Assembly: GCA_023958085.1 (NCBI GenBank)
Contig: JAMLGI010000017.1
Coordinates: forward strand, 1-35,412
DNA length: 35,412 bases
Reading direction: 5' to 3'
Origin: Solirubrobacterales bacterium
GTDB taxonomy: Bacteria; Actinomycetota; Thermoleophilia; Solirubrobacterales; 70-9
The position numbers were made by a program, and so were the translations under genes. This document shows positions 17,423 to 30,189 of the stretch, piece by piece. Positions within the stretch are counted from its first letter, which is position 1. Every line of letters begins with the position of its first letter. The notes under the pieces were generated by a model. It had not been told where the DNA came from, searched no databases, and worked only from the letters and a program-made list of their open reading frames with translations.

Positions 17423-17460
17423 ACCCAAAGCAGGCCTCCCAGCCAGACCGGCCCTGAAAC

Positions 17461-17509
17461 GTTCTGGAGCCGATTGTGGCCAAATAGCCTCCACTATCGG
17501 CTCCAGAAC
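17461..17509. repeat. Palindromic 3'-end repeat, copy A
   Basis: GTTCTGGAGCCGAT (17461-17474) and ATCGGCTCCAGAAC (17496-17509) are perfect 14-bp arms. Inner GTGG/CCAC pairs continue the stem after a T-T mismatch. It begins 38 nt after the rsmI stop and has no U-run. Confidence 0.85.
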
Positions 17510-17532
17510 GGCTGGGGGCAGACGGGGTTTGG

Positions 17533-17579
17533 TTCTGGAGCCGATTCTGGCGGCATAGGCTCCACTATCGGCTCCAGAA
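17533..17579. repeat. Palindromic 3'-end repeat, copy B
   Basis: TTCTGGAGCCGAT (17533-17545) and ATCGGCTCCAGAA (17567-17579) are perfect 13-bp arms. It lies exactly 71 bp after the equivalent point of copy A, forming a doublet upstream of metG. Confidence 0.85.
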
Positions 17580-17621
17580 GACTTTGGTTCTTGCCGATCG
17601 GCCTTTGATCTCGCCACGGAA

Positions 17622-17627
17622 TATCCT
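17622..17627 (+). promoter_or_regulatory. Candidate -10 box of metG (TATCCT)
   Basis: TATCCT ends 8 nt before GTG 17636. No ribosome site lies between them. Confidence 0.45.
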
Positions 17628-17635
17628 CAGTCCCC

Positions 17636-19135
17636 GTGAGTTTCTACGTCACAACCCCGATTTTCTACGGCAACGGTGAGCCCCACCTCGGTCACGCGTA
17701 CTCGACCATGGCCGCCGACATTCTCGCCCGCCACATGCGTCAGCGGGGCGAGGACGTCTTCTTCCTCACCGGTACCGACGAGCACGGCGAGCCGATCGCC
17801 CTGGCCGCCGAAAAGCAGGGGATCTCTCCGCAGGAGCTGGTCGACCGCAGCGCCGGTCAGTTCCGCGAGATGGTGGCCAGGGTCGATGCCACCAATGACT
17901 TCTTCATTCGAACCACCGACCGCGGGCACGTGGAGCGGGTCCAGCGGGTTGTGGACCGGGTGAAGGAGAACGGTTACGTCTACAGGGGGACCTACGAAGG
18001 CTGGTACTGCCCCCGCTGCGCCGACTTCAAGAACGAGTCCGAGATCGGCCCGGGTGAAACCTGCCTGATCCACGAGATCCCGCTCCATCGCGAGCAGCAG
18101 GAAAACTGGTTCTTCAGGCTCTCTGCCTTCCAGGAAAAGCTGGAGCGGCTCTACGAGGAGCACCCGGGGATGATCCAGCCCGATTTTCGTCGGAACGAGG
18201 CCCTCGCCTTCATCCGGCAGGGTCTCCGCGACGTGTCGCTCTCCCGGTCCGAGCTTTCCTGGGGGATCCCGCTCTCCTGGGACCCCGATCAGGTGATGTA
18301 CGTCTGGTTCGACGCGCTGCTCAACTACTACACCGCGCTCGGCTACGCCCGTGACGGGGAGGACCTCACCGACCGCTTCTGGCCCGCCTCGTGGCACATC
18401 ATCGCCAAGGACATCCTCAAGTTCCACACCGTCTACTGGCAGGCCTTCCTGATGGCGGCCGGGATCGAGGTTCCCCGCCGGATCTTCATTCACGGCTACC
18501 TGCTGATGGGCGAGAAGAAGATGTCGAAGTCACTCGGCAACGTGCTCGATCCATTCGAGGTGATCGAACGCTTCGGGGCGGACGCACTGCGGTTCTACTG
18601 CTTCCGGGAGGTCTCCTTCGGCCAGGACGGTTCGATCTCCACCGCCGGCTTCGAGAACCGTTACGAGACGGAGTTGGCCAACGATTTCGGCAACCTCGCC
18701 TCGCGCAGCCTGGCGATGATTTCCCGCTACCGGGAGGGTACGGTCCCGCGGTCCGACCCCGACCCGATGCTCGCCCCGGACTTCGACGGAATCGTCGAAC
18801 GGGTTTCCGGCCTGCTCGACGAGGCGCAGATCAGCCAGGCGCTGGAGGAGATCTGGGTGCTGGTCCGTCGACTCAACCGGTATGTGGAGGAGAGCCAGCC
18901 GTGGGTCTTGGCCAGGGACGAAGGCGACGCTGAACGACTCGATCAGGTGCTCTTCTCCCTGGCCGAGGGGCTCCGGGTTCTCGCCCTGCTGCTCCACCCC
19001 TGGCTCCCGAAATCGAGCGCCACCCTGCTGGCAGGACTGGGCGAGGCGGAGCTGCGGCTGACCGGGTTCGGAACGGGGTCAATGTCCGGACGACAGGTCG
19101 AGAAGATCGCGCCGCTTTTTCCCAAGCTTTCGTAA
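17636..19135 (+). CDS. metG: Methionyl-tRNA synthetase
   Basis: 499 residues. Class I signature HLGH follows TTPIFYGNGEP (~5-20); the KMSKS loop is intact in GEKKMSKSLGN. The connective domain has CPRC and a second pair reduced to C-x2-H (ETCLIHE), suggesting a modified zinc knuckle. No C-terminal tRNA-binding (EMAP-like) domain is present, as in the shorter actinobacterial forms. The enzyme charges initiator and elongator tRNA-Met in the cytoplasm. GTG 17636 is set by the conserved N-terminus and the near -10 box. It heads the metG-tatD-ksgA-ispE neighbourhood. Confidence 0.97.
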   Translation: MSFYVTTPIFYGNGEPHLGHAYSTMAADILARHMRQRGEDVFFLTGTDEHGEPIALAAEKQGISPQELVDRSAGQFREMVARVDATNDFFIRTTDRGHVERVQRVVDRVKENGYVYRGTYEGWYCPRCADFKNESEIGPGETCLIHEIPLHREQQENWFFRLSAFQEKLERLYEEHPGMIQPDFRRNEALAFIRQGLRDVSLSRSELSWGIPLSWDPDQVMYVWFDALLNYYTALGYARDGEDLTDRFWPASWHIIAKDILKFHTVYWQAFLMAAGIEVPRRIFIHGYLLMGEKKMSKSLGNVLDPFEVIERFGADALRFYCFREVSFGQDGSISTAGFENRYETELANDFGNLASRSLAMISRYREGTVPRSDPDPMLAPDFDGIVERVSGLLDEAQISQALEEIWVLVRRLNRYVEESQPWVLARDEGDAERLDQVLFSLAEGLRVLALLLHPWLPKSSATLLAGLGEAELRLTGFGTGSMSGRQVEKIAPLFPKLS

Positions 19136-19185
19136 GCTCTGGTGTGTCGGGCCGTCCGGTCCGGATCAATCAAAGGGGAGGGCGC

Positions 19186-19854
19186 ATGAGTACTCGATCG
19201 AACGATCGCGAAGAGGAGCGGACGGACCGCAGGTTTCGAGTCACGCCGGCAACCGTGATCGCGGGACTGGCACTTTTCGTCGCCCTCGGCGGCACCTCGA
19301 TCGCCGCCACGGGGCTGATCAATGGCAAGCAGATCAAGCCGGGCACGGTCACCGCCAAGCAGATCAGGAACCGGACGATCACCACTGCGAAGCTTGCTCC
19401 GGCCACTGTCAAGGGACTGCGGGGGAGGGTCGGGCCAACGGGAGCGACCGGACAGAAGGGTGAGACCGGAGCTGCCGGGGTAACCGGACCGGCCGGACCT
19501 GCCGCCTTGCCGGCCGCTTTCGAGAACGAGTCGGATCAGCTGGCCATCCCCGCGAACGCCGGGGCGGTCGATCTGGCCGAGCTGAGCCTTCCGGCGGGCC
19601 GCTACCTGATCACCGCCAAAGCGGTTCTGAAACCGGCCGCACCCGCGACCACAAGCTGCTGGGTTCCGGCCGACTACGGTGACTTCGTCGACACCTCGAA
19701 CTGGAACGCAAACGGTCCGGGCGAGGCCGGCACACTGGCGCTCACCGGGATCACCCCGTCCGGCACGACTCACGTCAGTCTGCGTTGCTTCACCGAGGAT
19801 GTGGCTTCGATGACCGGGCGCAACAAGTTGGTGGCGATCCCGGTCGCCGGCTGA
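19186..19854 (+). CDS. Membrane-anchored protein with collagen-like Gly-X-Y repeats
   Basis: 222 residues. A charged cytoplasmic N-terminus (1-20) leads into one hydrophobic helix (~21-41) with the sequence VALGGTSIAA. A segment of K/T-rich pseudo-repeats follows (GKQIKPGTVTAKQIRNRTITTAKL). Nine uninterrupted Gly-X-Y triplets lie at about residues 80-106. The C-terminal ~110 residues look like a beta-rich globular domain with two Cys. It is probably exported as a trimeric surface protein. ATG 19186 is chosen for the ribosome site AAAGGGGAGG just upstream. It is inserted between metG and tatD, and its function is unknown. Confidence 0.85.
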   Translation: MSTRSNDREEERTDRRFRVTPATVIAGLALFVALGGTSIAATGLINGKQIKPGTVTAKQIRNRTITTAKLAPATVKGLRGRVGPTGATGQKGETGAAGVTGPAGPAALPAAFENESDQLAIPANAGAVDLAELSLPAGRYLITAKAVLKPAAPATTSCWVPADYGDFVDTSNWNANGPGEAGTLALTGITPSGTTHVSLRCFTEDVASMTGRNKLVAIPVAG

Positions 19855-19906
19855 TCGGCCGATCCGCCGAGCCATGCAGCTTCTGGACCTGGCGGCGCAC
19901 TGCCTC

Positions 19907-19912
19907 TACTAT
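19907..19912 (+). promoter_or_regulatory. Candidate -10 box (TACTAT) of the small secreted gene
   Basis: TACTAT ends 6 nt before ATG 19919. TGGACC, 17 bp upstream, could act as a -35. It marks ATG 19919 rather than 19874 as the start. Confidence 0.5.
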
Positions 19913-19918
19913 CCAGGC

Positions 19919-20344
19919 ATGTTCAAAGTCAGGGCAGTTGTTGCCTCGATCGCCGTTGCCTTGATCGGTGCCGGCTTCTTTGCGTCGACCGCTCCGGCAG
20001 CGGACACTGCGGCCGTCCCGCTGTCGATCAAGGTCGCCCCGTTTGCCGGCAAGAAGGTCAAGGTTGCCAGGAAACTGAAGGTGATCGTCAGCTGCGATCG
20101 AGATTGTGTCGCCAAGGTGAGAATCACCCTGATCACCCCCGCCGGCAACAGCAAGGTCGGGGGTGCCCGAAGCCTGCCCGAGAATCGAAGCTGGATCACC
20201 GGAATGGTGCTGACCCGGTTCGGGGTCGGAGTGCTCCGAAATCATTTCCGCCGGTCCCGCCTGAAGGTCGTGGTCCGGGCCCGGGACCCGCAGGCCGGAG
20301 CTTGGTCGCAGGTGACCAGAACCTTCCGTTTTCGGCGCCAGTGA
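19919..20344 (+). CDS. Small secreted basic protein
   Basis: 141 residues. A signal peptide is clear: MFKVRAVVASIAVALIGAGFFASTAPAA with likely cleavage after APAA (~28). The mature part is rich in Lys, Arg and Val (VKVARKLKVIVSCDRDCVAKVRITL) with a two-Cys knuckle CDRDC, a beta-sandwich-like pattern. It resembles the basic C-terminal modules of the two large secreted hydrolases at 24881-29823, so it may be a free-standing version of that module binding cell-wall polymer (inference). No catalytic motif is visible. Confidence 0.8.
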   Translation: MFKVRAVVASIAVALIGAGFFASTAPAADTAAVPLSIKVAPFAGKKVKVARKLKVIVSCDRDCVAKVRITLITPAGNSKVGGARSLPENRSWITGMVLTRFGVGVLRNHFRRSRLKVVVRARDPQAGAWSQVTRTFRFRRQ

Positions 20345-20372
20345 GGACGGACCGGACTCGGGCGGCCACGCT

Positions 20373-20541
20373 CTAGATGATTGATTCCTGAGTAACGGGC
20401 GTCCGGGGGTTCGTCCGATCAAGCAGTTCAAGAAGGAGGGCGAAGAGCTTGCCGGTGGCAAGTTCGAGTCCCGACGACGCCGAAATGCGCCGTATCGGGC
20501 GGATCATCCGGACGTGGGTGAGTTGGGAATCAATCATCTAG
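20373..20541. repeat. 16-bp perfect inverted repeats bracketing the tatD upstream region
   Basis: CTAGATGATTGATTCC (20373-20388) and its exact complement GGAATCAATCATCTAG (20526-20541) are 137 bp apart. The right copy overlaps the tatD -10 box. The region between has a purine-rich open stretch without a normal start codon, and no RNA gene that I can recognise. Confidence 0.8.
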
Positions 20542-20544
20542 GCT
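20539..20544 (+). promoter_or_regulatory. Candidate -10 box of tatD (TAGGCT)
   Basis: TAGGCT ends exactly 6 nt before GTG 20551, so transcription would begin at or next to the start codon. Confidence 0.5.
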
Positions 20545-20550
20545 CAAGGC

Positions 20551-21330
20551 GTGATCGATTCCCACGCACACGTGAGCCGCTGTCCGATCTCCCCGGAGGA
20601 GCTGCTCGCCAACGCGGCCGCGTCCGGAGTCGAGCGGATCCTGACCGTGGGCCTCGAGGAAAGCTCGAACCGGGAACAGATCGCGCTCTGCGAAGCCTTC
20701 GACGGGCTTTTTGCCGCGATCGGGCGGCATCCCAACGATGCCGACGGTTTCGATGATGAGGCCGCCGCCGACATCGAGATGCTGGCTGAACACCCGGAGG
20801 TGCGGGCGATCGGCGAGACCGGCCTAGACTTCTTCCGTGACACCGCCGATCCGGCTTCTCAGCGGCGGGCCTTCGCCGCCCAGGCGGGGATCGCCGCCCG
20901 GACCGGCCTGCCGCTGGTGATTCACGTGCGCGACCGGGAGGGTCGTGAGGACGCCGTTGCCGAAGTCTTCGAAACCCTTGACCGGATCACCGAGGAGTCC
21001 GACGAGGGTCTGACCGTGATCCTCCACTGCTTCTCGGCCCCCGGCTGGGTTGAACGGGCGGCCGGGCGCGGCTGGTACTGCTCCTTTGCCGGCAACGTCA
21101 CCTACCCCGCCAACCAGGGGCTGCGTGACGCCGCCGCACAGGTGCCGGAGGAGCTGATCCTGGTTGAAACGGACTCGCCCTACCTCACCCCGCAGTCGAA
21201 GCGACGGGAACGGAACCAGCCCGCAAACGTGGTCGAGACGGCTCGCACCGTGGCCGAGGTCCGTGAGGTCTCGTACGAGGAGCTGGAGCGGACGGTCACC
21301 GACAATGCCGCCCGCCTGTTCGGATGGTGA
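20551..21330 (+). CDS. tatD: TatD-family metal-dependent deoxyribonuclease
   Basis: 259 residues. Metal ligands of the amidohydrolase-like barrel are all present: DSHAHVS at residue 2-8, GETGLDFFRD, VIHVRDREG, ILHCFSAPG and ETDSPYLTPQ. TatD enzymes show 3'-5' exonuclease and D-aminoacyl-tRNA-editing-type activities in various bacteria. GTG 20551 is fixed by the N-terminal His motif. The stop overlaps ksgA by 7 bp, beginning a tightly coupled tatD-ksgA-ispE-DedA/PAP2 run. Confidence 0.96.
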   Translation: MIDSHAHVSRCPISPEELLANAAASGVERILTVGLEESSNREQIALCEAFDGLFAAIGRHPNDADGFDDEAAADIEMLAEHPEVRAIGETGLDFFRDTADPASQRRAFAAQAGIAARTGLPLVIHVRDREGREDAVAEVFETLDRITEESDEGLTVILHCFSAPGWVERAAGRGWYCSFAGNVTYPANQGLRDAAAQVPEELILVETDSPYLTPQSKRRERNQPANVVETARTVAEVREVSYEELERTVTDNAARLFGW

Positions 21331-22106
21331 GGCTCGGCCAGAATTTCCTGGCCGACCCGAACCTGCTCGAGGCGATCGTCCGGGACTCGGGAGTGGGGCC
21401 GGACGACTGTGTGCTCGAGGTCGGGCTTGGTGAAGGAGTCCTGACCGAGCGGCTGGCCGAACGCTGCCGCAGCGTCCAGGTGATCGAACTGGATCGTGGC
21501 CTCGAACCGGGGGTGACCGAACTACTTACCCGCGAGCACGTGACCGTGATCTGGGAGGACGCGGTCAGGACCGACCTGACGAGACTGGACCCGACTCCGA
21601 CCGCGATGGTCGCCAACCTGCCGTACTCGGTCGCCACTCCGGTAATCCTCCGCACCGCATTCGAGCTGCCTTCGATCCGGTCCTGGACGGTGATGGTCCA
21701 GAAGGAGATCGGCGATCGGCTCCGGGCCGAGCCGGGTTCGAAAACCTACGGGGCCCCCTCGGTGCTGCTTCAGCTCACCGGCGAGGTGCGGCGGCTCCGT
21801 CGAGTCCCGCGCGAGGTGTTCCGGCCGAGGCCGAGGGTCGACTCGGCGATTCTCCGCATCGATCGCACCGGGCCCGGGCCGGACGAGCGAACCCGGCATC
21901 TGGTCAAGGCGGCCTTCGCCCATCGGCGCAAGGCCCTGGCCCGATCGGTCGAGCTGACCCTGCCCGGTTCGCTGGAGTCGGTCCGGGCGGCGCTTGACCG
22001 GATCGGGCGTGACCGGGGCGTCCGGGCGGAGGCACTTGCCCCCGGTGAGTTCGAGGACCTTGCCGCCGCGGTTCGCCTTCCGGGAGAATCCGGCCCCGGA
22101 CTGTGA
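21324..22106 (+). CDS. ksgA: 16S rRNA (adenine-1518/1519-N6)-dimethyltransferase RsmA/KsgA
   Basis: 260 residues. It begins with the family hallmark RLGQNFLADPNLLEAIV. The SAM-binding motif I is EVGLGEGVLTERL and the catalytic motif IV is NLPYSVATP. The C-terminal helical domain contains VKAAFAHRRKALARSVEL. It dimethylates two adjacent adenines in helix 45, a late step of 30S maturation. ATG 21324 overlaps tatD; GTG 21327 is an alternative. The stop overlaps ispE by four bases. Confidence 0.96.
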   Translation: MVRLGQNFLADPNLLEAIVRDSGVGPDDCVLEVGLGEGVLTERLAERCRSVQVIELDRGLEPGVTELLTREHVTVIWEDAVRTDLTRLDPTPTAMVANLPYSVATPVILRTAFELPSIRSWTVMVQKEIGDRLRAEPGSKTYGAPSVLLQLTGEVRRLRRVPREVFRPRPRVDSAILRIDRTGPGPDERTRHLVKAAFAHRRKALARSVELTLPGSLESVRAALDRIGRDRGVRAEALAPGEFEDLAAAVRLPGESGPGL

Positions 22107-22996
22107 CCATCGATCTGAAAAGCCAGCCGCCACCCTGGGTGCTTGACGCCCCGGCGAAGCTCAACCTCTGTCTCTATCTCGGTCCGCTGCGTAAGGACGG
22201 GCTACACGATCTGGCCTCGATTTTTGAGCCGCTCGGGCTTGAGGACCGGCTCACCCTGACCCCGGCTGAGCGTGACCGGGTGCGGGCACCGGGAGTGGTC
22301 GGGGAGAACATCGTCACCAAGGCACTCAGGCTGTTGCGTTCCGAAGGCTGGAATGAGGGTCCGTTCACGATCGAGATCGAGAAACGGATCCCGGTTGCGG
22401 CCGGGTTGGGGGGCGGAAGCGCAGACGCGGCCGCGATCCTCCGGCTGGCGGTCGGGGCGGTTGAGGACATCACCGGGATCGCCTTGATGCTGGGGGCCGA
22501 TGTGCCCTCTCAGCTCAACCCGAAACCGCTGCTGGTGGAGGGGGTGGGTCAGCGTCTGACCACGCTGCCGGTCCCGGCCGAGCACTGGGTCGTCCTGCTG
22601 CCGGTCGAGGGCGGGCTTTCGACCGGGGCGGTGTTTCAGGAGGCCGATCGACTCGGGCTCGCTCGAACCCAGGCCGAGATCGACGAGATCTCCGGGCGGC
22701 TCTGGGCCGTGGCGACCAACGGGGTCTCCCCGCTGGCCTATCCGGCGCTGCTTGTGAACGACCTCGAACCGGCGGCGATGTCGCTCAAACCGGAGATCGG
22801 CCTGGCGAAGGAACGAATGGCTGGCGCCGGGGCGGAGTTCACCGGCATGACCGGGACCGGACCGACCGTGTTCGGGATTTTTTCCGAACGGGAGGCGGCC
22901 GAAGCGGCGGCGGTCGGGATCGGTGAGGATGCGATCTTCTGTGCTGCCGGCGCCTGGACCGGAGCTTCAGGGCTGCACCTGGACGGCGAGCGGTGA
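22103..22996 (+). CDS. ispE: 4-diphosphocytidyl-2-C-methyl-D-erythritol kinase
   Basis: 297 residues, a GHMP kinase. The N-terminus has APAKLNLCLYLGPLRKDGLHDL, the ATP loop IPVAAGLGGGSADAAAILR and the GADVPSQLNPKPLLVEGVG substrate-binding segment. It phosphorylates CDP-methylerythritol in the MEP isoprenoid pathway. Both ends overlap neighbours by GTGA (22103-22106 and 22993-22996), a sign of coupled translation. Coupling to a DedA/PAP2 protein is notable because both act on isoprenoid supply and use (inference). Confidence 0.96.
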   Translation: MTIDLKSQPPPWVLDAPAKLNLCLYLGPLRKDGLHDLASIFEPLGLEDRLTLTPAERDRVRAPGVVGENIVTKALRLLRSEGWNEGPFTIEIEKRIPVAAGLGGGSADAAAILRLAVGAVEDITGIALMLGADVPSQLNPKPLLVEGVGQRLTTLPVPAEHWVVLLPVEGGLSTGAVFQEADRLGLARTQAEIDEISGRLWAVATNGVSPLAYPALLVNDLEPAAMSLKPEIGLAKERMAGAGAEFTGMTGTGPTVFGIFSEREAAEAAAVGIGEDAIFCAAGAWTGASGLHLDGER

Positions 22997-24465
22997 GGAT
23001 TCCCGAAAGCAGGCGCGGTCGGATCATCCTGGCGATCGGGATTCTGGTGACTGCCGCGGCCGCTTTTCTACTCTTCCGGCGCTTCTCTCCCAATCTCGAT
23101 CCGCAGCACCTGCTGAACGAGTTCGCCAATCTGCTCGGCGCCTGGACCTATCTTCTGGTCGCGCTGCTCTCCTTTCTGGAGACCGGGGCGTTCGTCGGTC
23201 TCGTGGTCCCGGGGGAAACCGCCCTGCTGGTCGCCGGGGCGATCGCCGGGCAGGGGGTGATCAACCTTTACCTTCTGATCGCGATCGCCTGGCTCTGCGC
23301 AGTACTCGGGGACACCACCAGCTTCTGGCTCGGTCACCGGCTGGGACGGGACTTCATCCTCAAACACGGCTCCCGGATCCTGATCACCCGGGAGCGGTAC
23401 GAGAAGGTCGAGGAGTACTTCGAGGATCATGGTGGCAAGACGGTCCTGGTCGGACGTTTCATCGGGCTGATCCGGGCGCTTTCGCCATTCGTCGCGGGAA
23501 GCTCCGGCATGAAGTTCCCCGATTTCCTCCCGTTCTCGATCCTCGGGGCCGGAGCGCAGGTTTCGATCCATATCGTGGTCGGATACCTGTTCGCCCGCTC
23601 ACTCGATGCCGCGGCCCACTGGGTCGGAATCGGTTTCCTCGTGTTCGGGAGCCTGGTCGCGCTGACTGTGGGTGTGGTCATGGCGCGAAAGTGGCTGCGG
23701 GTGCCGGCCAACCGGGTCCGGTTCCGGCGCAGGCTGGAGTCGGGCCGGTTCACCGGACCACTGCTTCTTCGGCTCACACCCCTGTTCGAGTTCCTCCGGG
23801 ACCGGCTTACCCCCGGTGGCACCTTCGGGCTCGAAGCGACCTCCCTGCTCGCCGTCCTCGCGGTCACCTCCTTCACCGTGATCGCCTTCACCGAGGTCAC
23901 CCTTGACAACCCCGGCCCGACCCCGGGTGATCTCCGGGCGCTCGACGTGGTCGGGTTCCTGCGTGCCGACTGGCTCGACTCGGTTGCCCGGGCGATCACC
24001 GACCTCGGATCGACCGCGGTGCTGCTGCCGTTGATCGTGTTCACCGCAGCCCTGCTGCTGGTGAGCCGACGCCCGCTGGAAGCCACCGTCCTGCTGTTCT
24101 CTGCGGTCACCGTCTTTTTCGGGGTCGACGCGCTGAAGGAGTACGTTCAGCGACCGCGGCCGGAGGGGGCGATCATCGCGGTGCCGGGTTACTCCTTCCC
24201 CAGCGGGCACGCTGCCCACTCGGTCTTCTATCTCTGGCTGGCGATCACGATCGCGGTGCGGTTGCGTCCCGACATGGTGCGGAAGGCCGCGGTGGTGGCG
24301 GTCGGGGCGGCAGTGACCGTGATCGTCGGGTTGAGCAGGGTCTATCTGGAGGTTCACTACCTGAGCGACGTCACCGCGGGCTGGGCGCTGGGCGGCTTCT
24401 GTTACGCGCTCTTCGCAACCGTCACCCTGCTGTCCGTCCGCTTGCGTAACAATCCCTCACCGTGA
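22993..24465 (+). CDS. DedA-PAP2 fusion membrane protein
   Basis: 490 residues with two domains. Residues ~1-220 form a DedA/SNARE-associated domain: FLETGAFVGLVVPGETALLVAG, FWLGHRLGRDFI and VGRFIGLIRALSPFVAGSSGM. Residues ~290-485 are a PAP2 phosphatase with all three motifs: KEYVQRPRP, YSFPSGHAAHS and SRVYLEVHYLSDVTAG. DedA proteins include undecaprenyl-phosphate flippases and PAP2 enzymes include undecaprenyl-pyrophosphate phosphatases, so the fusion suggests one protein that dephosphorylates and returns the lipid carrier. That role is inference from family knowledge. GTG 22993 overlaps the ispE stop. Confidence 0.92.
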   Translation: MRIPESRRGRIILAIGILVTAAAAFLLFRRFSPNLDPQHLLNEFANLLGAWTYLLVALLSFLETGAFVGLVVPGETALLVAGAIAGQGVINLYLLIAIAWLCAVLGDTTSFWLGHRLGRDFILKHGSRILITRERYEKVEEYFEDHGGKTVLVGRFIGLIRALSPFVAGSSGMKFPDFLPFSILGAGAQVSIHIVVGYLFARSLDAAAHWVGIGFLVFGSLVALTVGVVMARKWLRVPANRVRFRRRLESGRFTGPLLLRLTPLFEFLRDRLTPGGTFGLEATSLLAVLAVTSFTVIAFTEVTLDNPGPTPGDLRALDVVGFLRADWLDSVARAITDLGSTAVLLPLIVFTAALLLVSRRPLEATVLLFSAVTVFFGVDALKEYVQRPRPEGAIIAVPGYSFPSGHAAHSVFYLWLAITIAVRLRPDMVRKAAVVAVGAAVTVIVGLSRVYLEVHYLSDVTAGWALGGFCYALFATVTLLSVRLRNNPSP

Positions 24466-24707
24466 TCGCGATTGCGACCAACGTCTGGTACTTCGGTGCC
24501 GCCGGGATCGTCAGTCTGGCCGCCTTCATCGGCCTGATCCTGGTTCCTGCGATGAAGTCCTTCGGCCGCTGGCCGGAGCGAGTCGCCGCCGGGTTTCTCT
24601 CGCTGTTTGTGCTCGGCGGTCTGGTCACGGTCGGGGTGCTGGCCGGACTGGCCTGGGTCCTGGTTTCCCAGGACATCTCCGGGATCTTCCCCTGGTCCGG
24701 CAGCTAA
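24462..24707 (+). CDS. Small two-helix membrane protein
   Basis: 81 residues with two hydrophobic segments (about 9-30 and 44-68) joined by a basic loop MKSFGRWPERVA, which is probably cytoplasmic. GTG 24462 overlaps the preceding stop by 4 bp, so it is the last coupled member of the tatD operon. I recognise no family. Its position suggests it may assist the DedA/PAP2 protein, but nothing in the sequence proves that. Palindromic repeat copy C follows 43 nt later. Confidence 0.75.
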   Translation: MIAIATNVWYFGAAGIVSLAAFIGLILVPAMKSFGRWPERVAAGFLSLFVLGGLVTVGVLAGLAWVLVSQDISGIFPWSGS

Positions 24708-24750
24708 ACCTCGATTCACAGACCTGCACGACCCTGGTCCCCCTTTCTCT

Positions 24751-24797
24751 TTCTGGAGCCGATTTAGGCGGCATGGCCGCCACAATCGGCTCCAGAA
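24751..24797. repeat. Palindromic 3'-end repeat, copy C
   Basis: TTCTGGAGCCGATT (24751-24764) pairs perfectly with AATCGGCTCCAGAA (24784-24797). The inner GGCGGC-ATG-GCCGCC makes the hairpin nearly continuous. It lies between the end of the ispE operon and a convergent gene. Confidence 0.85.
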
Positions 24798-24832
24798 CGG
24801 GTTGGGGCTTTTCGACTGGGTGGAGCTGCAAC

Positions 24833-24864
24833 GAAAAGGGGCGGGATTGCTCCCGCCCCTTTCG
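24833..24864 (-). terminator. Intrinsic terminator of the first secreted hydrolase
   Basis: AAAGGGGCGGGA (24835-24846) pairs with TCCCGCCCCTTT (24851-24862). On the minus strand the stem is followed by TTTTCG. It starts 18 nt after the hydrolase stop. Confidence 0.8.
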
Positions 24865-24880
24865 TCGCGGTCTTCGGGTT

Positions 24881-27256
24881 CTAGCTGACCCTGCCGGTCC
24901 GCTTGATCGTCAGCTTGCCGCTGTTGGTCTGGCCGCCACCCTTGATCCGGACGGTGGCGGTGCCCTTCTTCAGGCCTTTCTTGCGGCCCTTGCCCTTGAA
25001 GGCCTTGCGGGCCTTGGCGGTCAGCTTCAGCTTGACGGTCTTCGAGGCCCCCTGAAGCAGGGCCGGGGTCCGGCCCTTGGCCAGCACGCCCTTGAGCTTG
25101 CCCTTGCCCCGCACCGTGGCACTGCCTGCCTTACAGGAGTTGGCCGCCGTGCAGGTGACCCTGATGGTGAGCGTCCTGCCCTTGGCCGAGCCACGCTTCG
25201 CCGCCGTGCTGGTTCCGACGAGCCGAACCGATCCGATCTTGCTGTAGTCCTTCATCAGCGTCTTGCCGGCCGGTACCGGTTTGGCCAGCGGCTTCTTGAC
25301 CAGGCCCTTCAGCGAGCCCGGCTTCTCCATCACCGGCAGACGGACGTCGATGTTGCTGATCTTCACGTCCCGCTGGTCGTTCGACGGCAGGATGTAGTCC
25401 AGCATCCGCTGGTTCGGATCCTTGTGGCCGTCCCGCGGCAGCAGCTGGAGTCGTGCCGTTGTGCCCGGCTCGAACCGGTAGCCGTTGCCGTGAAGCTGGA
25501 ACACCTGACGGCCGGACTTGTCGGGACGGTAGACACCCCGGGCGATGATCCGTTCCTGGCGGTTCTTGACCTCCAGCAGCCGGGCTGCGATCTGTGACTC
25601 GGGGCCGTTGGCAACGCTGATGTCAGCGGACACCGTCGGTGAACCGGCCAGGGTGAAGCCACCGGCCGGGGTGACCGGGAAGTCAAGCTGGACCACGCCC
25701 GGCTCGTTGACATCCGGGGCGGTGGTGCAGCCGTCATTCACGGTGGTGAACTTGGAGGCGATGCCATCGACGCCACCCGATGCCTTGATCACCTGGCTCC
25801 TGGTGCTGTTCAGACGCAGCTCGCCCGAAGAGAGCGCCGACCAGCTGGGTGCCTTGAAAGGACCGCCCGAGGGGGACGAGTAGGGGCAGACCTGGGTCAG
25901 GAGCTCGACTCCGGCTTCCGGTTGTGCACCCTGGCCCAGCAGGTAGTAGTCGAACCACTTCACGACCGTCTGGAGGCTGGTCTCCTTGTCGGCGTCACGA
26001 CCCTGTTCGATCCCCTGACCGAAGGCAGGGGCCCGGGGATGGCCGATGTCGGCGAACAGCAGGCCGACCTTGGCGTCCGGGTGGTGGGTCTTGGCCCGGT
26101 TGTAGTAGCGGATCGATTCGTCCGGCGGGAAGAGATCGTCGGTCAGACCCTCGGCGATGATCATCGGAGCCGGAGTGACCGAGTCGTCGATGTAATAGGC
26201 CGAGTGGAAGTTGGTCATTTCGTTCAGCATCGTCTTCGCCGCAGCCGCGTTTGGTCCGGTGCCGTACGGTTCGCCCGCGGCCATCATCGAACGCCAGTTG
26301 CGGACGTCCCACTTGGGGCTGGGGGTGAACCCGAGCTCCGGGTAGTCACCGGAGAAGTTGTCACCGGCGCCGAACAGCAGGTTGATGATCGCCGACTTCA
26401 TCACCCCGTACTTGGTGCTGTCCTTGAAGGTTCCGTCGGCGTTCTGTGGGCCGTACGGGTTCAGGGCCGTGTAGTCGAGTGTGGTCCCGTTCGGGACCAG
26501 CGAGTAGGCGAAGTCGGTCGGCGGCACGACCGGGGCCGCGACCGCGATCTCCAGGCTCTTGCCGTCGGGACTCTTCCACGGCTGAAGGCTGCCGTCGGGA
26601 AGCATGATCCGGTTCCTGAGGGAACCGAGATCCATCGACTTGGCACCGCCGTAGGAGGCGCCGACCGAACCGATCTTGTCCGGGATGATCAGGCCTTCGT
26701 CGGCCAGCAGGCCGGCGAAGTACTGGGCGTCACGGACCTCGTAGCGGGCGTCCATCAGGTGGATGAAACCGTCGTCGCAGGCATCCGGGCCGTAGCCGTT
26801 CGGCTGGGTCTGGGTCAGGGTCGCGACCGCATTCTTCTTGCCACAGGAGAACTTGAAGCCACGCTCGGTCATCGAGAACACGGCGACTCCCTTGTCGGTG
26901 AACCGCTTGAGGTCACCGCCAAAGCCCTCCTTGCCGCCACCAAAACCGTGGAAGTACATCGCCATCGGGTAGGGGCCTGGACCAAACTGGCCCGGGTCGG
27001 GCAGGCCGAAGTTGATGTCGATCGGGGTGCCGTCCCAGCTCGGCACGGTCCGGGCGACCGCCTGGTTCGAGCCAGGGGCGGCATTCGGGTCCCCTCCGGG
27101 GCCGCTGCACTCGATCACGTTGGTGGAGCCGTTCTGGGTGCAGGGCAGCTTGCCGTTGAAAACCCCGTCGACTAGCGGGTTGACGGCTGCGTTCGCCGGT
27201 CCGGCGAGCACGAGGGTGGCGACGAGCGCGATCAGAGCGCCGACGAGCTTTCGCAT
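24881..27256 (-). CDS. Secreted S15/CocE-type alpha/beta hydrolase, paralogue 1
   Basis: 791 residues. Signal peptide MRKLVGALIALVATLVLAGPANA (1-23). The alpha/beta-hydrolase domain has a YFHGFGGGKEG oxyanion loop (~101-111) and nucleophile Ser201 in GASYGG. An Asp follows in LTDDLFPP (~372-374) and a His at ~406 in ADIGHPRA, a complete triad. A beta-rich middle domain resembles the C-terminal domain of X-Pro dipeptidyl peptidases. The last ~110 residues are a Lys-rich module ending KLTIKRTGRVS. It is probably a cell-wall-associated or secreted peptidase or esterase; the substrate is unknown. It is paralogous to the upstream gene ending at 27472. A possible ribosome site AGGGAG lies upstream of ATG 27256. 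Confidence 0.88.
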   Translation of the reverse strand: MRKLVGALIALVATLVLAGPANAAVNPLVDGVFNGKLPCTQNGSTNVIECSGPGGDPNAAPGSNQAVARTVPSWDGTPIDINFGLPDPGQFGPGPYPMAMYFHGFGGGKEGFGGDLKRFTDKGVAVFSMTERGFKFSCGKKNAVATLTQTQPNGYGPDACDDGFIHLMDARYEVRDAQYFAGLLADEGLIIPDKIGSVGASYGGAKSMDLGSLRNRIMLPDGSLQPWKSPDGKSLEIAVAAPVVPPTDFAYSLVPNGTTLDYTALNPYGPQNADGTFKDSTKYGVMKSAIINLLFGAGDNFSGDYPELGFTPSPKWDVRNWRSMMAAGEPYGTGPNAAAAKTMLNEMTNFHSAYYIDDSVTPAPMIIAEGLTDDLFPPDESIRYYNRAKTHHPDAKVGLLFADIGHPRAPAFGQGIEQGRDADKETSLQTVVKWFDYYLLGQGAQPEAGVELLTQVCPYSSPSGGPFKAPSWSALSSGELRLNSTRSQVIKASGGVDGIASKFTTVNDGCTTAPDVNEPGVVQLDFPVTPAGGFTLAGSPTVSADISVANGPESQIAARLLEVKNRQERIIARGVYRPDKSGRQVFQLHGNGYRFEPGTTARLQLLPRDGHKDPNQRMLDYILPSNDQRDVKISNIDVRLPVMEKPGSLKGLVKKPLAKPVPAGKTLMKDYSKIGSVRLVGTSTAAKRGSAKGRTLTIRVTCTAANSCKAGSATVRGKGKLKGVLAKGRTPALLQGASKTVKLKLTAKARKAFKGKGRKKGLKKGTATVRIKGGGQTNSGKLTIKRTGRVS

Positions 27257-27416
27257 TGGTTTTGGTTCTCCCTATTTCCGGACTTTGACTTTTTCGGGGC
27301 ATTCCGCAAAGCGGCGCCCACATCTCCCTGTAACACAGGCCAGCCCGAAAGGACCGGCACGAAGGCAAAGAGTATCAGCCGTCCCTGATCGGGCCTGAAT
27401 CGGTTCCGAAAAGCAA

Positions 27417-27444
27417 CCGGCGGCTGTCTGGAGACAGCCGCCGG
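27417..27444 (-). terminator. Intrinsic terminator between the two hydrolases
   Basis: CCGGCGGCTGTCT (27417-27429) and AGACAGCCGCCGG (27432-27444) are perfect arms. On the minus strand TTGCTTTT follows. It begins 27 nt after the stop of paralogue 2, so the tandem genes are probably separate transcripts. The remaining gap (27265-27410) would hold the promoter of paralogue 1, but no clear boxes stand out. Confidence 0.8.
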
Positions 27445-27471
27445 TGTCAGGAGATGAAACGGTCGAAGGCT

Positions 27472-29823
27472 CTACCTCACGCGGCCGGTGCGCTTCACGG
27501 TCACGTGACCGGCGTTCCTGCCGCCGATCGTCACCTTGGCGCGGAGGCTCTTCAGCCCCTTGACCCGCTTGATCTTCACCTTGCCGCGCTTGCGGATCTT
27601 CCTCTTGCTGTCGCGGAACAGCTTCCGGGCCGCGTTGGTCAGCTTGAGCTTGACCGTGGCGGTCTTGCCGGCCTTGACCCTGACCGTGCCGGCGGCCAGC
27701 TTGACGTTCCTGCCCTTGGCCTTCTTGCCCTTCGGAGCGCCCTTGAAGAGCACCTTGACCGGGGCGCACCTGGCGGCACCGGTCTGGGGGGCGGCGCAGC
27801 GGAAGCGGGCGGTGAGCTGCCGGCCCTTCACCGTCACCCGGCCGACCCGGGTGACCGTGCCGTTCTGATAGGCGGCGAGGGTGACCGCGCCGATCTGCTC
27901 GTTGCCCCGGGCCAGGGCGGCACCGGGCCGGGCAGGCAGCACCCGCGGGGCGGGCTTGGTGACCAGTCCCGCTAGGGATCCGGGGCTGTCCTTCACCGGG
28001 ACCCGGAGGTCCATGTCGGAGACGGTCACCGGCTGCTGGCCGTCGGACGGACGCCCGAAGTTGGAGAGCAGGGCGCTCTTGTCGGCCCCTCCGTCGTAGG
28101 GCAGCAGCTCCAGCCGCAGGACGTGACCCTCCTTGACCGTCCAGCCGTTCGGGTTGAGCTGGAACACCTGTCGGCCGGAGTTCTCCGGGCGCCAGAGGGC
28201 GCGGTTGACCAGGGTCTTGACGCTGCCGTCCGGGGAGACATCGACCAGACGGGCGGCGAGCTGCGAGTTTTCACCGGCGACCTGGATCTTGGCGACCACG
28301 GTCGGGGAACCCATCACCGTGAAGCCACCGGCCGGGGCCGGGGCGAGCTCGTAGTTCGCGGTCCCGGCCTCCTGGGCGCCGGGAGCCTCCGAGCAGGCCT
28401 TGCCGGCAGGGGGCGCGCTGGTCGGGTTGAACGCGTTGCCCGAGGCGCGATCACCGCCGCCCGGGGAGACGGTCTGCGAAGCGGCGCTCCGCAGCCGGAT
28501 CTCACCCGGCGACTGCGAGGCCCAGTCCTTGGTCACGAAGGGTCCTCCGTCGGGATCACCGTCGGGGCAGACCTGGGTGAAGGTGGTCACGTCGCTGGCC
28601 GGTTTCGCACCGGTGCCGGCCAGGTAGTAGTCGACCCACTGGTCGTCCAGCGCGTCCTTGGCGGCCCCCACATCGCTGCCGTTCTGGCCACGCATGTGGC
28701 CGAAGGAACCGAAGAACAGTCCGATCGGTGTGTTCGGGTACTGGGCCCGGGTGCGGTTGTAGTAGCGGGTTGCTTCGTTGGCCGGGAACAGGTCGTCGGT
28801 GAACCCGGAAGAGATGAAGAGCGGGGCCGGTGGCTGGCTGTGATCGATGTAGTAGGAGGAGTGGTGAGCGGTGATCTCATCCAGCATCTGCTTTGCACCG
28901 CTCTTGCTGTCGTACGGCTCGCCGGCATCCATGAAGGCCTTCCAGCCGGTCAGGTCGGCTGAGGGGTCCTGCCCCTTCGGCGCGTAGTAGGCCGGGGCCA
29001 GAAGGCCCGAGGTGTAGAGCCCGTTCACGTAGGACTGTTTCATCACGCCGAAGCGGCCGTGGTACGAGGCGTCCTTGATGTAGTCGACGTTGGAGCCGTT
29101 GGGTACCAGCGAGTAGGCGAGGTCGGTCCAGGGGATGTCCGGGACCGAGACCGCGAGGCTCATCGGAGTGCCGTCCGGGCTCTTCCACGGGGCGTACTTG
29201 CCGTCGGGAAGCATGATCCGGTCCTTCAGGGCCGCCAGGGCCATCGACATCCCGCCGCCGTAGGAGCCGCCGGTCGAGGCGATCTTGGTCGGCTGGACCA
29301 GGCCCTCGTCGACCAGCATTCCGGCGAAGGTCTGGGCGTCACGCACCTCGTAGCGGGTGTCGTCCAGTCTCAGGTAACCCTTGGTGGCGCAGACCGGATC
29401 CGCCGCCTTGGCGTTGGCGGTGCCGCAGGACTCGTGGAAGCCGCGGTTCGACTGGCTGAAGACGGCGTAGCCCTTGCTCAGCCAGTGCTGCATGCCGGGG
29501 AAGTTGATCTTGCCTCCGCCGTAGCCGTGGAACATGTAGACCAGCGGGTAGGGACCTTCGCCCCACTGGCTGTTGGTCGGGTTCGGGAGCGCGAAGTTCA
29601 CGTCGATCGGAACCCCGTCGAAGGACTTGACCGTCGACCGGGTGTTGACCGGCTGCGGGTTGTGCTGGCCGGTGCCGCACCAGGTCTGGCCCTCGTTCGG
29701 TCCCGGGCCCTGGGTGGTGCAGCTCACCGCACCGTCAAAGACCGAGGCCGGGGCCGCACCGGCGACCGACGGAACCACAAACAGGGCCGCGAGGGCGGCA
29801 AACAGGACGACAAACTTGCGCAT
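27472..29823 (-). CDS. Secreted S15/CocE-type alpha/beta hydrolase, paralogue 2
   Basis: 783 residues. Signal peptide MRKFVVLFAALAALFVVPSVAGA (1-23). Same layout as paralogue 1: MFHGYGGGKINF loop, nucleophile Ser187 in GGSYGGG, Asp in FTDDLFPANEATRYYNR, His in FGSFGHMRG, a beta-rich domain with QVFQLNPNGW, and a basic C-terminal module (VKLKLTNAARKLF to VTVKRTGRVR). ATG 29823 is chosen over 29874 because GGAGAG lies just before it and the signal peptide begins there. Tandem duplication followed by divergence is evident. The enzyme type is sure; the substrate is not. Confidence 0.88.
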   Translation of the reverse strand: MRKFVVLFAALAALFVVPSVAGAAPASVFDGAVSCTTQGPGPNEGQTWCGTGQHNPQPVNTRSTVKSFDGVPIDVNFALPNPTNSQWGEGPYPLVYMFHGYGGGKINFPGMQHWLSKGYAVFSQSNRGFHESCGTANAKAADPVCATKGYLRLDDTRYEVRDAQTFAGMLVDEGLVQPTKIASTGGSYGGGMSMALAALKDRIMLPDGKYAPWKSPDGTPMSLAVSVPDIPWTDLAYSLVPNGSNVDYIKDASYHGRFGVMKQSYVNGLYTSGLLAPAYYAPKGQDPSADLTGWKAFMDAGEPYDSKSGAKQMLDEITAHHSSYYIDHSQPPAPLFISSGFTDDLFPANEATRYYNRTRAQYPNTPIGLFFGSFGHMRGQNGSDVGAAKDALDDQWVDYYLAGTGAKPASDVTTFTQVCPDGDPDGGPFVTKDWASQSPGEIRLRSAASQTVSPGGGDRASGNAFNPTSAPPAGKACSEAPGAQEAGTANYELAPAPAGGFTVMGSPTVVAKIQVAGENSQLAARLVDVSPDGSVKTLVNRALWRPENSGRQVFQLNPNGWTVKEGHVLRLELLPYDGGADKSALLSNFGRPSDGQQPVTVSDMDLRVPVKDSPGSLAGLVTKPAPRVLPARPGAALARGNEQIGAVTLAAYQNGTVTRVGRVTVKGRQLTARFRCAAPQTGAARCAPVKVLFKGAPKGKKAKGRNVKLAAGTVRVKAGKTATVKLKLTNAARKLFRDSKRKIRKRGKVKIKRVKGLKSLRAKVTIGGRNAGHVTVKRTGRVR

Positions 29824-29906
29824 TTCTCTCCGGTTCAGCTGAGTTGGTTTCCCCAAGCCGGAGCCATGCAGCAAGCGATTCCGGCCGTTGCGGGCACCCT
29901 ATAGAA

Positions 29907-29930
29907 CGCAACTGTTCACAACAAGTTGCG
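29907..29930. promoter_or_regulatory. Candidate promoter-operator of hydrolase paralogue 2
   Basis: CGCAACT (29907-29913) and AGTTGCG (29924-29930) are 7-bp perfect arms 10 nt apart. On the minus strand TTGTTG (-35-like) and TAGGGT (-10-like) lie 17 bp apart across this site. A bound regulator would overlap the promoter. Confidence 0.5.
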
Positions 29931-29962
29931 CCGCTCGACCACCCCGACAACCCCCCCAACCG

Positions 29963-30009
29963 TTCTGGAGCCGGTTTAGGACACATAGCGACCACGATCG
30001 GCTCCAGAA
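29963..30009. repeat. Palindromic 3'-end repeat, copy D
   Basis: TTCTGGAGCCGGT pairs with ATCGGCTCCAGAA at the other end with a single mismatch. It is the distal member of a doublet downstream of tRNA-Gln. Confidence 0.85.
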
Positions 30010-30033
30010 AGTTCGTCTCGGCCTTTGTCCCCG

Positions 30034-30080
30034 TTCTGGAGCCGATTTAGGTCAAATGGCGTCCACAATCGGCTCCAGAA
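30034..30080. repeat. Palindromic 3'-end repeat, copy E
   Basis: TTCTGGAGCCGATT (30034-30047) and AATCGGCTCCAGAA (30067-30080) are perfect arms. It begins 36 nt beyond the tRNA 3' end and exactly 71 bp from copy D. Confidence 0.85.
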
Positions 30081-30116
30081 ACAAGTGGGGGCTGTTGAGC
30101 CAGATGACTGCATTAG

Positions 30117-30189
30117 CTCCGGGGGGAGGACTCGAACCTCCATAGCCGGGACCAAAACCCGGTGGGTTAGCCAGTTACCCCACCCCGGA
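30117..30189 (-). tRNA. tRNA-Gln (anticodon UUG)
   Basis: The minus strand folds into a complete 73-nt cloverleaf. The acceptor TCCGGGG pairs with CCCCGGA. The D arm contains GGGTAACTGGCTAACCC. The anticodon stem CCGGG/CCCGG holds loop TTTTGGT with anticodon TTG, and the T arm is GGAGG-TTCGAGT-CCTCC. The discriminator is G and CCA is not encoded. A GATACT box about 20 nt upstream could be its -10. A tRNA-Gln beside glmU is, from memory, a conserved arrangement in actinobacteria. Confidence 0.95.

Follow-up and report, generated by a model that had tools for sequence, protein, structure and literature searches.

REP-like tandem hairpin repeats with a co-varying four-base segment in a Solirubrobacterales genome and its congeners

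Five similar palindromes stand close to gene ends in a 35,412-nucleotide stretch of DNA (the window) from a Solirubrobacterales bacterium whose assembly, here called G000, comprises 2.44 Mb in 31 contigs and is 95% complete, and they raise the question of whether such repeats are 3'-end signals, binding sites for a protein or mobile elements. All five palindromes of the initial annotation were found, each within one base of its proposed position (Table 1); the first is real, with a start one base away from the proposed 17461. The distances to neighboring genes had been given correctly: doublet 1 starts 39 nt past the rsmI stop codon (17422), the single copy starts 43 nt past the stop codon (24707) that ends the ispE operon's last gene, and doublet 3 is located downstream of tRNA-Gln (minus strand, 30116-30189), at a distance of 35 nt. 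Two of the three sites are doublets with an identical 71-bp pitch. A 13-mer arm has 32 matches in the window with up to three mismatches versus 12.1 ± 3.1 in shuffled sequence (none of 100 shuffles reaches 32), and each exact arm is part of one of the five palindromes. A search of the window and eight loci against Rfam matched tRNA only.

Table 1. Coordinates of the hairpin repeats and adjoining features in the window.
Feature	Position	Strand	Remarks
Hairpin P1, doublet 1	17460-17510	+	47-bp core 17462-17508, CG added on each side; core RNA fold -27.8 kcal/mol, z -6.6
Spacer of doublet 1, 24 nt	17509-17532		Start-to-start pitch 71 bp
Hairpin P2, doublet 1	17533-17579	+	RNA fold -30.2 kcal/mol
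Single hairpin between convergent ends of the ispE operon's last gene and a minus-strand gene	24751-24797	+	RNA fold -36.8 kcal/mol, z -8.8
Separate terminator-like bidirectional hairpin AAAGGGGCGGGA..TCCCGCCCCTTT adjoining the single copy, outside the hairpin-repeat family	24835-24862		
Hairpin P1, doublet 3	29963-30009	+	One mismatch in the first arm (GCCGGT); G variant at position 12
Spacer of doublet 3, 24 nt	30010-30033		
Hairpin P2, doublet 3	30034-30080	+	35 nt from tRNA-Gln 3' end
Complete doublet 3 including outer flanks, C-rich and G-rich	29951-30092	+	One long hairpin, -75.9 kcal/mol

Elsewhere in the window, two adjacent long genes on the minus strand (24881-27256 and 27472-29874) resemble tandem paralogues, with repeated blocks about 2.6 kb apart; the second has a weak match to CocE/NonD hydrolases, and the first has no NCBIfam match. 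Positions 3-154 and 157-333 contain a further dispersed repeat, matched up to 8 times among the loci sampled, and a direct repeat at 111-bp spacing.

The palindromes belong, as had been proposed, to a genuine repeat family: a 47-mer pattern searched in G000 with up to three mismatches gave 75 forward matches versus 0 for the reversed control, and 75 copies of the repeat (TTCTGGAGCCG[A/G]TT…ATCGGCTCCAGAA) were counted in loci of about 8 kb taken around all listed copies. Because the four copies on contig C29 lie in a near-duplicate of part of contig C7, and a further 46-base variant is found at C9:57515, the distinct copies number at least 72. C29 (L090), a near repeat of part of C7 (L075) and possibly a strain variant, terminates precisely at a hairpin; thus, the repeats break the assembly. 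Among 71 copies, arm positions 3-11 and 37-45 are 99-100% invariant, whereas positions 12, 15, 16, 20-22, 25, 27-29 and 34 of the middle vary, with splits up to 54/46. The loop frame of the initial annotation (CCAC..ATC) holds for CCAC (30-33), which is fixed; GGC (17-19) and AT (23-24), which it had missed, are fixed as well, and so is G26. Loops recur at unlinked loci of G000, and hairpins from one doublet resemble each other more than hairpins from different loci do (4.2 differences versus 6.6, permutation p <2e-4); the copies are therefore related by descent.

Doublets make up 30 of the 45 clusters in the loci taken from G000, the other 15 not being doublets (about one third of clusters are singles), and in all 30 the hairpins have the same orientation, head to tail. 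The start-to-start pitch is 71 bp in 25 doublets, 70 bp in three, 69 bp in one and 72 bp in one, but the 24-base spacers are unlike in sequence from locus to locus; arms and pitch are held far more tightly than loops and spacers. Singles are no more degenerate than doublets (pairwise identity 0.877 versus 0.860). Tandem duplication of a 71-bp segment of the locus was rejected as the origin of doublets, the spacer matching its own flank at 11.4 of 24 positions against 10.0. Uptake sequences used as terminators were likewise rejected, for single arms are not in excess: in 400 kb of G000 background there is no lone arm except one 10-mer inside a gene, and none is intergenic.

Strong folds are predicted for both RNA and DNA (z of about -6 to -10), with an outer stem of 12-15 bp plus inner pairs; doublet 3 folds into one long hairpin and doublet 1 into two. 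The outer flank is rich in C on the upstream side and in G on the downstream side. In doublets, the two outer flanks are mutually complementary beyond shuffled sequences (p 0.006 for 4 nt and 0.01 for 8 nt, several lengths having been tried), while complementary flanks extending the feet of single hairpins are not significant against shuffles, which hints weakly at the doublet as the unit. Seven hairpin copies (in L062, L063, L065, L067, L068, L074 and L076) have another dispersed repeat 16-19 nt upstream of them, at about -20 to -165; it is about 145 bp long and has the inverted ends GCGGGCGGTCCGCAGG and CCTGCGAACCACCCGC. L068 and L076 also have 233 bp downstream in common (96%).

Placement was assessed with genes called by a simple custom gene caller trained on G000 sequences, against a background of 400 kb of G000 chosen between clusters, in which 36% of intergenic bp are divergent, 16% convergent and 48% co-directional. 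All copies are intergenic, with no overlap with genes. The 41 cluster gaps include 16 convergent gaps, an enrichment over the 16% of intergenic bp (p 3e-4), 20 co-directional gaps, and only 5 divergent gaps versus 36% of intergenic bp (p 6e-4), one of these being that of the doublet beside tRNA-Gln. The nearest gene boundary is a 3' end for 28 of 43 clusters versus 41% expected at random intergenic points (p 0.001); a 3' end is no more than 45 nt away for 18 of the 43 (24% expected) and a 5' end for 4 (31% expected). Thus, comparison of the palindromes with gene ends genome-wide bears out many copies in intergenic DNA and a relation to 3' ends, but as a moderate bias and not the regular placement that had been described: the 5' end is nearer for 15 of 43 clusters, the 3' side is nearer in only 12 of 20 co-directional gaps, and orientation is free, the canonical strand being parallel to transcription in 9 co-directional gaps and antiparallel in 11. 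A strand-specific RNA element was rejected on this lack of relation to transcription, and a replication-strand orientation on the lack of any link to the GC skew of the 8-kb locus. The earlier conclusion that the placement speaks against random insertion does not follow, since known and presumably mobile REPs show the same 3'-side and convergent bias (PMC3733652) and two congeners lack the repeats in their rsmI-metG gap.

Enrichment in convergent gaps, the 3'-side bias and very stable RNA folds (z -5.8 to -8.8) are what might be expected of hairpins maintained by the host at 3' ends, whether as tandem bidirectional terminators or as RNA-stabilizing structures without a U tract, selected locus by locus, with arms homogenized or read by an RNA-binding protein. 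The hairpins of L064, only 14-17 nt from both stop codons, and the compensatory changes across species described below would fit as well, and clusters of hairpins without U tails have been proposed as terminators (PMC8355165). This explanation is nonetheless rather unlikely: for about 35% of clusters the closer boundary is a 5' end, orientation is free, the repeats are present in only about 40 gaps of G000 and are few or missing in ten congeners, the copy at 24751 has a separate terminator-like hairpin beside it, and a terminator requires neither a single fixed arm nor a fixed 71-bp pitch.

Comparison within the genus (18 species including G000, the congener genomes being 73-96% complete) revealed related repeats with different arms. 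The arm sequence of G000 is absent from the 17 congeners and from 49 genomes of the family, and in the GTDB collection it has only two unrelated single matches. A palindrome search in 400 kb of congener G001 identified a second family, GTGGGTCGGATTTCCG-N10-CGGAAATCCGACCCAC, that is also found in G006, G008, G010, G011 and G013 and forms tandem pairs at a pitch of 72-73 bp, and a third family in G003 (TCTGG-[CAA/CCG]-CGGTTTC) includes a pair at 72 bp and a triple at 71 and 72 bp. These families and that of G000 have in common the frame TGG-NNNN-GRTTT…AAAYC-NNNN-CCA, in which NNNN differs. Thus, seven congeners besides G000 (G001, G003, G006, G008, G010, G011 and G013), a set not previously recognized, share the hairpin frame with another, co-varying NNNN and the same tandem pitch, which is 71-73 bp in G001 (L129), G003 (C2 and the C21 triple), G008 and G011; a few congener clusters have a pitch of 60 or 82-83 bp. 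A search of the order (232 genomes) for this frame, with NNNN unconstrained in both arms, recovered the seven congeners and scattered matches in three other genomes.

Among 27 hand-picked representatives (the singletons G026 and G125 were left out as chance-looking), NNNN is paired in 100 of 108 cells, with GC, CG, AU and UA all present, although the search pattern did not require pairing, and the covariation score is 0.48 versus 0.13 ± 0.02 for shuffled and at most 0.11 for slid partners. With a covariance model, the family was found in 10 of the genus's 18 species: G000 has 139 strand-matches, seven others have 14-71, and G004 and G012 have 2 apiece. Outside the genus, matches are only sporadic, and ten congeners have few or no copies. 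That the palindrome is kept while its sequence changes shows selection for self-complementarity; co-variation alone would look the same for a folded hairpin and for a dimeric duplex site. In G001 and G011, nearly all loops are different and the arms are perfect. Copies near the same gene in G000 and a congener (L067/L149, L068/L151 and L078/L129) differ in the other flank and are too few to judge.

Arm co-variation is expected of any palindromic site, with no preference for a folded hairpin over a dimer site, and could also arise if the repeats were sites at which a chromosome-organizing or regulatory protein grips two palindromes 71-73 bp apart, protein and NNNN co-evolving. Such a protein would account for invariant arms and a fixed pitch amid unconserved spacers and loops, for the conserved GGC, AT and CCAC of the middle, and for a pitch conserved between species with different arms. 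It is an improbable explanation all the same, with one third of clusters single, carriers patchy within the genus, loops common to loci by descent and no candidate protein identified.

Insertion of the repeats is consistent with the rsmI-metG gap, which is 213 bp in G000 versus about 34 bp in G012 and 56 bp in G014; no base-exact empty site was recovered, even the nearest congeners being distant (MetG identity 85%). A -10-like TATGCT stands shortly before the metG start in several congeners (L095, L096, L097 and L101), and TATCCT in the window (17660-17690), which suggests that a leaderless metG transcript may start downstream of the hairpins.

The RAYT-type transposase that the initial annotation had thought worth seeking was found neither in G000 (Y1 transposase family PF01797, 0 matches at E<=0.1) nor in any other hairpin-rich carrier (18 genomes of the genus searched), and RAYT/IS200 elements were rejected on this search. 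The sole PF01797 match in the genus is in G012, on an AT-rich contig (C204, L214) where the Y1 transposase is found among clostridial-looking genes; this contig is probably assembly contamination. The palindrome could alternatively represent the terminal inverted repeats of a MITE moved by a DDE transposase, and the slight difference between left and right arms (CAA/CGG in G003) resembles that of insertion-sequence ends. This is very unlikely, since no target-site duplication of 3-9 bp rises above the shuffled maximum at any offset, 47 bp is very short, the spacers are unconserved, and the flanking genes looked at (ten proteins adjoining copies) are ordinary; a classical MITE was rejected on the missing duplication, the 2-bp signal at offset 0 being mostly the palindromic CG. 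A composite transposon was also rejected: in both L062 and L075, two clusters in inverted orientation, separated by about 2.6 kb, enclose ordinary genes (an NHL-repeat protein, a beta-eliminating lyase, a DUF559/MTES_1575 nuclease-like protein and tRNA-Tyr). Carriage by phage was rejected, viral contigs having no match for two arm types.

Several known systems resemble the G000 repeats in part. Mycobacterial interspersed repetitive units are likewise head-to-tail tandem units of less than 100 bp at about 40 intergenic sites, but they are not known to be palindromic or hairpin-based. The likeness to REPs and REPINs is closer: the GI REPINs of Pseudomonas fluorescens SBW25 are doublets at a 71-bp pitch (PMC3116915), and they too are intergenic palindromes in tens to hundreds, with fixed-pitch doublets, conserved ends, a variable spacer, species-specific sequence and a preference for convergent and 3' positions. 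REPIN doublets, however, are inverted (93%), REPINs are linked to RAYTs, and REPIN singles are degenerate remnants, unlike the head-to-tail doublets of G000 and its singles, which are no more degenerate than doublets. The GTAG tag that marks one end of a REP palindrome is missing (in none of 43 clusters does GTAG or CTAC come within 12 nt of an outer foot), and the stem of the GTAG superfamily is 5-13 bp, a range from which the outer stem of G000 barely departs at its short end. CGTC-tagged REPs are also palindromic families without a dedicated transposase, in convergent and unidirectional placement, but they have a stem of 8-9 bp, a loop of 4-5 bp and head-to-head dimers, with head-to-tail REP dimers absent, under-represented or negligible (PMC3733652); the G000 stem is longer, and CGTC is within 12 nt of an outer foot in 0 of 43 clusters. 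BIMEs have mosaic neighborhoods, as does G000 with its 145-bp repeat directly upstream of seven copies, but combine REPs of alternating orientation with GTAG, neither of which is seen in G000. Tandem-hairpin (cluster) intrinsic terminators similarly have two stable hairpins past the stop codon and no U tract, but their hairpins are less than 15 nt apart and share no family sequence (PMC8355165).

The G000 family has the broad features of REP-like sequences (multi-copy, intergenic, species-specific palindromes with a 3'/convergent bias). Because the tags, a RAYT and inverted doublets are missing and the stems are longer, the repeats fall outside the known REP and REPIN families: they are REP-like by behavior and not by membership. 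Together with those of the congeners, they look like a new branch of small, presumably mobile REP-like hairpins in which a four-base signature changes between species while the stem is kept, with a constant tandem pitch, in eight species of one genus and with no Y1 transposase.

On balance, the repeats are probably REP-like, non-autonomous mobile hairpins of this genus, served by a putative trans-acting factor and perhaps having a secondary effect on RNA 3' ends. The unit would be a quasi-palindrome of 40-47 bp (TGG-NNNN-G-R-TTT / AAA-Y-C-NNNN-CCA), which in G000 normally occurs as a head-to-tail doublet at a pitch of 71 bp (genus range 71-73 bp). A factor encoded elsewhere, and not of the Y1/RAYT type, may recognize the folded stem, conceivably at a single-stranded stage, with the co-varying NNNN as an identity tag, and the same factor would copy units into intergenic DNA. 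Copies would persist chiefly in convergent gaps and on the 3' sides of genes, leaving promoters undisturbed, and transcribed copies would form very stable hairpins, secondarily able to act on 3' ends from either direction. Against mobility, the perfect arms and differing loops of G001 and G011 would fit strong selection on each copy equally well as copying; moreover, PF01797, a target-site duplication, an orientation bias with GC skew and a base-level empty site are all lacking, singles are not degenerate, and some congener pitches are 60 or 82-83 bp.

A more specific proposal, offered tentatively, is a RAYT-independent system in which the putative factor would read head-to-tail hairpins (71-73 bp), with NNNN as a species code, and spread them or hold them at gene ends across the genus. 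REP-type hairpins are considered dependent on RAYT transposases; a family of this type without a Y1 transposase in eight species is thus a place to seek another enzyme or host function, and the presence of carriers and non-carriers within one genus makes a partner gene searchable by phyletic pattern.

Palindromes of other designs were also observed in the congeners. Three in G001 (L114:14248, L115:16044 and L127:8647) have a conserved core (CCTTGGTGTGCACAGTCCCAGTCGG or a variant) and arms that differ while remaining self-complementary, the reverse of the hairpin-repeat pattern. Palindromes at L124:6850 in G001 and L174:2257 in G009 have a common core, ACCTCCGGAATGAGGAGCGCAGCGACGGT (one strand), with different arms, and G003 has another palindrome family with arms GGCAGTGA..TCACTGCC (L163:5774, L164:19503 and L167:19386).
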